A stretch of 64,000 bases of DNA from Kordia sp. TARA_039_SRF (GTDB lineage: Bacteria > Bacteroidota > Bacteroidia > Flavobacteriales > Flavobacteriaceae). The stretch spans positions 383,127-447,126 of the forward strand of contig SMNH02000002.1 in assembly GCA_006383075.2 (NCBI GenBank), read 5' to 3'. Numbering within the stretch: position 1 is the first letter of the stretch; every line of letters starts with the position of its first letter. Below are positions 39,041-61,590 of the stretch, one piece after another. The notes beneath the pieces were generated by a model. That model saw only the letters and a program-made list of their open reading frames with translations. It was not told the origin of the DNA and made no database searches. Position numbers and translations under genes: made by a program.

Positions 39041-39262
39041 TTATTCTATTGGACAAAGTTGACCTCCCCACCATGAAGCACAAATAAACGTTTCACATAC
39101 TCCTGATGGACAGTAATCACAAGAATTAAAAATAGTTGGAGGTTGACATGGCTCTCCAATCATTGTTTGGTCTCCTCTACCTCCTACTAACCCTGATTTT
39201 TGATCAAAACTAGAAATAGACTTCTTGTTAAGTTTTAAACTCTTCAAATTCTTTTTTTTCAT
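39041..39262 (-). CDS. Class I lanthipeptide-type precursor (Cys-rich), orphan
   Basis: The product has 73 residues. The leader MKKKNLKSLKLNKKSISSF is near-identical to that of the gene at 49324. It has the K-L-x-L-x-K-x-x-I pattern of Bacteroidota natural-product leaders, and a Gly-Gly at 27-28. The core has six Cys at positions 39, 48, 51, 56, 61 and 70, plus a few Ser/Thr. I see no LanB, LanC, radical-SAM or export gene in the window. A promoter on the minus strand is not obvious; a terminator with a C-TTCG-G loop follows. This could be a lanthipeptide, a disulfide-rich peptide, or a peptide modified by enzymes elsewhere. Confidence 0.78.
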   Translation of the reverse strand: MKKKNLKSLKLNKKSISSFDQKSGLVGGRGDQTMIGEPCQPPTIFNSCDYCPSGVCETFICASWWGGQLCPIE

Positions 39263-48152: not shown

Positions 48153-49124
48153 TTACGCTTCAATCATATCTTCTACAGAAGCTAAATAACGTTCTGCATC
48201 AAGCGCAGCCATACATCCTGTTCCGGCAGCTGTAATTGCCTGACGGTATTCTTTATCTTGCACATCTCCAGCAGCAAATACACCAGGAATGTTTGTTTTG
48301 GTAGATTTTGCGCCTGTGATTAAATATCCTGTGTCATCCATGTCTAAAATTCCTTTAAACATGTCTGTATTTGGTTTGTGTCCAATCGCGATGAAAACGC
48401 CTGTTACATCCAATTCACGCTTTTCTTGCGTTTGATTGTTTACAATTCGAACTCCTTCAACTACCATATCACCCAAAACTTCATCCAATTCCGTGTTGAA
48501 TAATACTTCTAAGTTTTCTGCACCATGTACACGGTGTTGCATTGCTTTACTCGCGCGCATTTCATCTTTACGAACCAACATGGTTACTTTTCTACACAAT
48601 TTTGCCAAGTAGGTTGCTTCTTCTGCAGCAGTATCACCACCACCAACAACAATCACATCTTGACCTTTATAGAAAAATCCGTCACACGTAGCACAGGCAG
48701 AAACGCCGCCACCAATAAGGCGTTGTTCACTTTCCAATCCTAAATATTTTGCGGAAGCTCCTGTAGAAATAATAACCGTTTTTGCCAACAATTCCTGCTC
48801 CGCTGCTCCATCACTGACATATACTTTGTGAATACCACCAATTTCTTTCGACAAATCTACTTTTGTTGCAATTCCGAAACGCACATCAGTTCCAAAGCGC
48901 GTTGCTTGATTTTTCAAATCTTCCATCATTGCAGTTCCATCTGTTCCGTTTGGATATCCTGGAAAGTTATCTACTTCGGTTGTGGTTGTTAACTGTCCTC
49001 CTGGCTCCATTCCTGTGTACATTACAGGATTCATATCTGCTCTAGCTGCGTAAATTGCTGCGGTGTATCCTGCAGGACCGCTTCCTATAATTAAACAATC
49101 TAAGGCTGTATTTGTATCTGACAT
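48153..49124 (-). CDS. trxB: Thioredoxin-disulfide reductase
   Basis: The 323-residue FAD/NADPH enzyme reduces thioredoxin. FAD binding is seen as IIGSGPAGYTAAIYAARADM, the redox pair as CATCDG, NADPH binding as VVGGGDTAAEEATYLA and the C-terminal FAD motif as GVFAAGDVQDKEYRQAITAAGTGC. A -7 box with an overlapping 6-bp inverted repeat (CTTTTG-TAA-CAAAAG) lies upstream, at 49150-49166. Confidence 0.95.
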   Translation of the reverse strand: MSDTNTALDCLIIGSGPAGYTAAIYAARADMNPVMYTGMEPGGQLTTTTEVDNFPGYPNGTDGTAMMEDLKNQATRFGTDVRFGIATKVDLSKEIGGIHKVYVSDGAAEQELLAKTVIISTGASAKYLGLESEQRLIGGGVSACATCDGFFYKGQDVIVVGGGDTAAEEATYLAKLCRKVTMLVRKDEMRASKAMQHRVHGAENLEVLFNTELDEVLGDMVVEGVRIVNNQTQEKRELDVTGVFIAIGHKPNTDMFKGILDMDDTGYLITGAKSTKTNIPGVFAAGDVQDKEYRQAITAAGTGCMAALDAERYLASVEDMIEA

Positions 49125-49263: not shown

Positions 49264-49304
49264 AAAAAAAGAAAGCAACATCACATATTTGTAATATTGC
49301 TTTC
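49264..49304 (-). terminator. Terminator of the second precursor
   Basis: On the minus strand GAAAGCAATATTAC pairs with GTGATGTTGCTTTC using two G-U pairs, and seven T residues follow. The strand bias of the G-U pairs supports transcription of 49324-49560 on the minus strand. Confidence 0.8.
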
Positions 49305-49323: not shown

Positions 49324-49560
49324 TTATTTTTTTCCTTTAGGATCGGTCAAATTACAAACAACACCACCTTCGCAGTGCGTTTCAATACAAGTTCCGCAGG
49401 TATCGTGCGTACAGTACGTGACAGATTCTATACAATTTCCCGCAGGACAAGAAACACCGCAAGTAATAGTGTCTTCCGTGCCTCCTTTTCCTTTTATAAA
49501 ACTAAAATTGGAAATTGATTTTTTGTTCAGTGCTAATGCTTTTAAATTTCTTTTTTTCAT
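49324..49560 (-). CDS. Class I lanthipeptide-type precursor (eight Cys), orphan
   Basis: The product has 78 residues. The leader MKKRNLKALALNKKSISNF matches the precursor at 39041 in 15 of 19 positions; LNKKSIS is unchanged. Gly-Gly occurs at 26-27. The core carries eight Cys at 34, 38, 43, 50, 55, 58, 63 and 69, interspersed with many Thr/Ser (TEDTITC, THDTCGTC, ETHC). No modification or transport enzyme is nearby. It lies between trxB and a module of unknown genes, with its own terminator. Confidence 0.78.
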   Translation of the reverse strand: MKKRNLKALALNKKSISNFSFIKGKGGTEDTITCGVSCPAGNCIESVTYCTHDTCGTCIETHCEGGVVCNLTDPKGKK

Positions 49561-61011: not shown

Positions 61012-61590
61012 CTAAAATACGCCTGTAGCAACATCGCCAATGTCACTAGTACTGATATCTGTTTTGGTACATTTTCCGCCGTTATTACATGGTGAACAAT
61101 ATGGCAAATCATTATTATCATGATCGTATTTTACAGCGCATCCTGTAGATTCGTCTGCGCAATCAGAAGTTGTACATGTTATTCTTCGGTTGGCAACTAA
61201 GACATGCGAAGCAGACGCAGTAGCTTTTGCATTGGATTTTATCGCCTCTACATAAAACGAAGTACGATACATTTTTCCTTCAAACAATAAATTGTATGCA
61301 CCATCATCAATACTCACTACATATACATTTGTATAGTTTTCTTCAATACCTGCATAGGTTTTCATATTCTGACTCAGTGCATTTACTGCCTTTTTTGTGT
61401 CAATAGTAAGCACAGGCGTTCCATCTTTGATGTGCCCAATTTCAACCCAATTGGCATCTGTTACTGTCAATTTTGATTTTGCCGAATTTGCATCGGTAGC
61501 TTTTGTGGTTTCTTGATCACTTGTACATCCGATTAGTAAAAAACTACATACAAGCGCGATTACGGATAGGTTTTTAAATCTTTTTTTCAT
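61012..61590 (-). CDS. Cys-rich lipoprotein, unrecognised
   Basis: The product has 192 residues. The signal ends CSFLLIGC-TSDQ. The middle is beta-rich (VTDANWVEIGHIKDGTPVL, YTNVYVVSIDDGAYNLL, EGKMYRTSFYVEA). The last 55 residues contain seven Cys in a C-x5-C-x6-C..C-x2-C-x5-C style pattern (ITCTTSDCADESTGC; YCSPCNNGGKC). That resembles metal- or disulfide-stabilised small domains. No family is recognised and it is monocistronic. Confidence 0.8.
   Translation of the reverse strand: MKKRFKNLSVIALVCSFLLIGCTSDQETTKATDANSAKSKLTVTDANWVEIGHIKDGTPVLTIDTKKAVNALSQNMKTYAGIEENYTNVYVVSIDDGAYNLLFEGKMYRTSFYVEAIKSNAKATASASHVLVANRRITCTTSDCADESTGCAVKYDHDNNDLPYCSPCNNGGKCTKTDISTSDIGDVATGVF

Follow-up and report, generated by a model that had tools for sequence, protein, structure and literature searches.

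Results

Two precursor genes with a common leader

The window, a 64,000-nucleotide stretch of the Kordia sp. TARA_039_SRF genome, carries on its minus strand two genes for short Cys-rich peptides that share their N-terminal part and differ in the remainder. Bit scores in the following list refer to the leader model described below.

49324–49560, minus strand: precursor peptide gene, 78 aa, ATG start; 41.9 bits (place C2:432606-432686)
49480–49560, minus strand: leader of this precursor by leader alignment, residues 1–27, Gly-Gly at its end
49327–49479, minus strand: core of this precursor, from the sequence; 51 aa with 8 Cys and 11 Ser/Thr
49271–49304, minus strand: intrinsic terminator whose 15-bp stem includes two G-U pairs and has a T run behind it
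39041–39262, minus strand: sister precursor gene, 73 aa, with a core of 45 aa and 6 Cys; 39.4 bits (place C2:422305-422388)
39179–39262, minus strand: leader of the sister precursor, residues 1–28, Gly-Gly at its end

The leader of the 49324–49560 ORF (minus strand) reads MKKRNLKALALNKKSISNFSFIKGKGG, and we infer that leader and core are divided after Gly26-Gly27. The initial annotation had described this ORF, its eight-Cys core, a near-identical leader but unrelated core in the 39041 ORF, and a strand-specific terminator with two G-U pairs, and all of these were recovered. Residues 1–19 of the two ORFs are identical at 15 of 19 positions, with mismatches at 4, 8, 10 and 18. Identity between the two cores was 0.27, below the 95th percentile of shuffled cores (0.34; median 0.22), and the cores are therefore unrelated by this test. 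The terminator (minus strand 49304–49271; G-U pairs taken from the fold) has a loop of 4 and a T tail, and its folding energy of −21 kcal/mol (z −5.1) was equalled in 0 of 200 shuffles.

On the same strand, the 49324 gene is neighboured by an ORF at 48153–49124, which we take to be thioredoxin-reductase-like from its motifs, and by an 89-aa ORF that matched no Pfam family over the cut-off. The ORF list of the window also holds a lipoprotein-like ORF at 61012–61590 (minus strand) with a Cys-rich C-terminal stretch. A zinc finger was considered for the 49324 core and rejected, since the match to PF00097 (E 0.28) stayed under the cut-off and Cys-Cys spacings of 1–3 are depleted across the cores of the family.

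The leader family in the genome

The best match of both window proteins was NF038153 (NCBIfam lant_leader_L1a), a class I lanthipeptide leader, at 9.2 and 11.2 bits, under its cut-off of 22 bits. At E ≤ 10 this model hit 117 own-genome places, of which 26 exceeded the cut-off. A leader model was built from 29 leaders (the two of the window and 27 taken from among the best NF038153 places), which favours the own genome; it gave at least 145 own-genome matches at E ≤ 0.01 among the best 150 of 272 first-look candidates. Applying our own threshold of 14 bits to 101 stretches (100 from the genome plus the window) yielded 156 precursor ORFs; 145 of these reached 20 bits, and 127 of the 156 were absent from the training set of the model. 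Four of the 101 stretches (L105, which reaches a contig end, L109, L111 and L124) yielded no ORF at 14 bits.

The pattern that the initial annotation had seen in two genes thus stood as to the shared leader and fell short as to scale, with 2 seen of about 156, and the reading that only these two genes carry the leader was ruled out by the genome-wide matches. The genome-wide search recovered 156 precursors, mostly with GG-ended leaders and with differing cores rich in Cys and Thr. Its suggestion of a fixed leader with a variable core, served by one enzyme, is supported by inference from the 145 leader matches at E ≤ 0.01 and the single LanB of the genome, a candidate recognition protein whose predicted fold is nearest to class I dehydratases.

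The 156 precursors form 101 groups over 18 contigs; 65 genes are solitary and 91 lie in groups of 2 to 5. Only 4 of the 156 are located within 15 kb of LanB and 152 lie beyond this distance; the 49324 gene itself is on contig C2 and LanB on contig C1, outside the usual clustering with lanB and lanC. The 49324 precursor is assigned, as a probable member of the class I system, through its leader. Leaders end in GG in 149 of the 156 precursors. The exact motif LxLxKx5L is present in 100 leaders and the relaxed form LxLxKx5[LF] in 119; both window leaders contain L9xL11xK13x5, and at position 19, where the exact motif has its final Leu, both carry Phe.

Features outside the coding sequence were also shared. 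A stable hairpin ahead of a T run was found within 90 bases downstream of 77 of the 156 precursors, versus 5 in one shuffled set, and ATC immediately precedes the ATG in 38% of precursors versus 8% of 99 long ORFs. The upstream stretches contain more A at −12 and −11, forming a common start context. TAnnTTTG, the Bacteroidetes −7 promoter motif, gave no signal upstream of the precursors (20 of 155, versus 21.5 in shuffles). Recent copying of leader DNA was rejected, with codon identity at identical leader residues just slightly raised (0.58 versus the 0.51 that codon usage predicts).

Composition and selection of the cores

The 156 cores have a median length of 39.5 aa and contain 11.6% Cys, 12.3% Thr and 6.7% Ser. 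Cys and Ser/Thr are both present in 154 of them, the remaining 2 having no Cys, and 153 have a Ser/Thr 2–7 residues before a Cys. In lanthionine rings the usual direction is from an earlier dehydro residue to a later Cys. Among 124 cores left after removal of similar ones, Ser/Thr 3–6 residues before Cys was strongly enriched (554 versus 401 in shuffles, z +8.8) and Ser/Thr 3–6 residues after Cys was depleted (342 versus 402, z −3.3), a bias that fits rings which would be closed in this direction. Two observations speak against such rings: Ser/Thr was also raised at +2 after Cys in the full set, similar cores included, and 2 cores have no Cys. The number of Cys is odd in 72 of the 156 cores, and Cys-Cys spacings of 1–3 are depleted.

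Comparison with the genus genome G064, sampled as 17 stretches from its best leader matches with 30 precursors, showed an own-genome core of more than 0.5 identity for 21 of the 30 and none among the 156 for the other 9. Cores therefore seem to be both retained and turned over, and our own list may be incomplete. For the 21 ortholog pairs, which were picked by core similarity so that the ratios are biased downward, dN/dS was 0.105 for the cores and 0.141 for the leaders, at dS values of 0.55 and 0.44, respectively; these cores are under purifying selection.

A single split LanB, with LanC and an exporter

The own genome contains one Lant_dehydr_N (PF04738, 503 bits) and one Lant_dehydr_C (PF14028, 245 bits), the glutamylation and elimination domains of a class I LanB, encoded as adjacent separate proteins of 751 and 302 aa. 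They are adjoined by a stand-alone LanC of 405 aa, in which WCYG and CHG, the zinc-binding motifs of LanC, are kept and align to the same sites in solved LanC-like proteins. About 7 kb from LanB lie a C39-peptidase ABC exporter and an HlyD-like protein; the genome as a whole gave five C39 matches that exceed the cut-off. Two regulator-like ORFs are located between LanB and the exporter, one of which was scanned and contains TPR and helix-turn-helix matches; an ECF-sigma-like gene lies on the other side. The predicted LanB structure (mean pLDDT 76.8, 19 sequences) best matched class I dehydratases, with TM-scores of 0.82 to MadB-substrate and 0.75–0.77 to NisB-leader. If NisB anatomy, as we take it, applies to the model, residues about 151–235 would form the leader-binding winged-helix part.

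Other lanthipeptide-like genes were observed elsewhere. Two precursors adjoin LanC-like genes, at L141:852-1094 (C1:445789) and at L133:1949-2218 (C1:578878; weak, 24 bits). A LanM-like class II synthetase (DUF4135 + LANC_like) is encoded at L033:190-2562 (G000:C5). Kinase (APH-like), HopA1 and LanC-like genes stand in a row at L168:9662-14123 (G000:C3:470001-490000), which we take to be a class V-like lanthipeptide set, and a 290-aa ORF beside them with repeated GPTGxxGC/TIGITGWQGC-like units is perhaps a multi-core precursor. Of the 11 genus genomes, all but G062 have LanC-like frames of 426–427 aa.

Distribution in Kordia and other genera

Each of the 11 Kordia-genus genomes has exactly one PF04738 LanB and between 111 and at least 150 scored leader matches (five genomes at 150 or more), at least 1,550 in total. 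The own LanB is 88–98% identical to LanBs in eight Kordia records. The single-contig genome G062, with a LanB island similar to the own one by ORF reading, contains 124 leader matches and one LanC-like protein at E ≤ 0.001, which is located beside LanB. A divergent leader-like ORF (MK..LKL.K.KIS..., 5.8 to 14.3 bits) occurs near the LanB island of five Kordia genomes (L125:8678-8917; L147:13477-13698; L148:15162-15404; L149:15236-15457; and, at 5.8 bits in G062, L191:6610-6873) and is perhaps an old local precursor.

Outside the genus, the same search at E ≤ 0.01 gave 1 match over 59 other-genus genomes of the family versus 137 in the own genome. That one match, in G018, lies about 1.6 kb from its LanB; the other 58 genomes gave none, and chance Lys-rich N-termini were rejected on this ground. 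Of 20 relative LanB loci, 19 have a leader match of more than 7 bits no farther than 10 kb from LanB, as do 11 of the 12 outside Kordia. LanB was present in 7 of the 60 family genomes and leader matches at E ≤ 0.01 in 2 of these 7, the own genome included, and LanBs of this kind are therefore also found together with different leaders, or with ones that the model missed.

Discussion

Proposed pathway and competing explanations

We consider it likely that the product of the 49324 gene is a class I lanthipeptide precursor with a leader akin to the Bacteroidetes LxLxKx5L type. It would be one of about 156 precursors that have this leader in common and are recognised through it by a single set of enzymes acting in trans. 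LanB would bind the common leader of the dispersed precursors, glutamylate Ser and Thr of the core using Glu-tRNA and then eliminate glutamate to leave dehydro residues, to which LanC would join later Cys residues as lanthionine or methyllanthionine rings. A tRNA requirement has been reported for the LanBs of Chryseobacterium and Runella (PMC9993889). Cleavage after Gly-Gly and secretion of the product would fall to the C39-peptidase ABC exporter, together with its HlyD-like partner. The LanB and LanC set, encoded once in the genome, would act in trans on precursors from 101 places. For the 49324 peptide, leader binding, dehydration, cyclisation and export are predicted, and we likewise infer that one enzyme set acts on all precursors.

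The GG ends of 149 of the 156 leaders and the five C39 matches would also be expected if the leader were a signal for C39-type ABC export alone, with cores secreted unmodified or as disulfide peptides. We regard this as quite improbable: the Ser/Thr-before-Cys signal is directional, the Cys number is odd in 72 of 156 cores with spacings of 1–3 depleted, and other genera place leader matches beside LanB. None of the 53 LanB-less family genomes matched at E ≤ 0.01 either, a weak argument with just 2 of the 60 genomes matching and the genomes being related. It is still less probable that another enzyme, namely a radical-SAM/SPASM maturase, a LanM or the kinase/HopA1/LanC set, modifies most of the peptides. 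The own genome does hold a LanM-like protein and the kinase/HopA1/LanC set, and a 2024 survey (PMC11118758) mentions Kordia in connection with both lanthipeptides and rSAM-modified peptides. However, the two SPASM matches found in a SPASM-domain search (C10 and C6) both lie more than 35 kb from any recovered precursor, which weakens the maturase. Frames of LanM size were present in no more than 3 of the 11 genus genomes; G062, where none was seen, has just the LanC-like protein of its island and yet carries 124 leaders. This weakens LanM as an enzyme for the family at large.

An intermediate arrangement, in which more than one enzyme set draws on the common leaders so that LanB/LanC modify most peptides and stand-alone LanC-like proteins or others a few, is unlikely but deserves more weight. 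Two precursors, in L141 at C1:445 kb and, with the weak 24-bit match, in L133 at C1:579 kb, do have a LanC-like gene directly beside them; against it, the sole PF04738 dehydratase of the genome sits in the LanB island, and the one LanC-like protein of G062 is that of the island. A single LanB/LanC set that reads the common leader remains our preferred explanation.

Relation to known systems

Several elements are already in print: the leader type, the link between GG and C39, the richness of Kordia in RiPPs, and the dispersed design for ProcM and SyncM. Bacteroidetes class I LanAs with an LxLxKx5L leader have a GG end, a C39 protease in the cluster and a split LanB (Walker 2020, PMC7268733). 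The Kordia system shares the Gly-Gly end, C39 and the split LanB with them and has a similar leader, although both window leaders carry Phe for the final Leu and stay under the NF038153 cut-off; those LanAs were, moreover, gathered within 7 genes of a LanC, in contrast to Kordia with its 4 of 156 within 15 kb of LanB. Pinensins of Chitinophaga, a Bacteroidetes class I lanthipeptide encoded in a gene cluster (PMC7268733), also have a split LanB, whereas a large dispersed precursor set is not mentioned for them in the relevant part of that paper. A lanthipeptide cluster is named among the clusters of Kordia genomes in the corresponding passage of PMC7477175. Up to 176 RiPP precursors were reported in a Bacteroidota genome, with Kordia as an example, and section 7 of that survey makes no mention of one common leader, dispersal or a single LanB for the Kordia precursors (PMC11118758).

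The dispersed one-enzyme design is described, in the portion of PMC10783134 that bears on it, for ProcM with 29 precursors and SyncM with 79, both exceeded by the number in Kordia. Like the Kordia precursors, prochlorosins and synechococsins combine one enzyme with a conserved GG-ended leader, diverse cores and scattered genes, and gene counts and places in Kordia likewise give many dispersed precursors per enzyme set. They differ in that prochlorosins and synechococsins depend on a class II LanM and Nif11-family precursors, whereas Kordia has a class I LanB pair with LanC and a different leader, and a frame of LanM size is present in just 3 of the 11 genomes of the genus. By analogy, the Kordia system would work like these class II systems, and is not a member of them. 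Searches of the open PMC literature, supplements aside, turned up no class I LanB/LanC for which scattered substrates in such numbers are described.

Implications

On balance we favour the view that Kordia holds a class I counterpart of the prochlorosins, in which one split LanB with LanC, encoded apart from nearly all of its substrates, modifies 111 to more than 150 leader-matched peptides per species. New cores would emerge while the leader in front of them stays fixed, and would then be kept by purifying selection. The most likely role, as a best guess, is a secreted peptide library for microbial interactions. Mining restricted to the surroundings of LanB would presumably overlook the 152 of 156 precursors that are located beyond 15 kb from it. 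Dispersed many-substrate lanthipeptide making is known, in the text on this point, from picocyanobacterial class II LanM enzymes (29 and 79 precursors; PMC10783134). If true, the Kordia set would be an unusually large natural library made by one enzyme with many products; a class I LanB/LanC that broad would add a new promiscuous engine with uses in building peptide libraries, and would allow tests of how a tRNA-dependent dehydratase accepts more than 100 unrelated cores.
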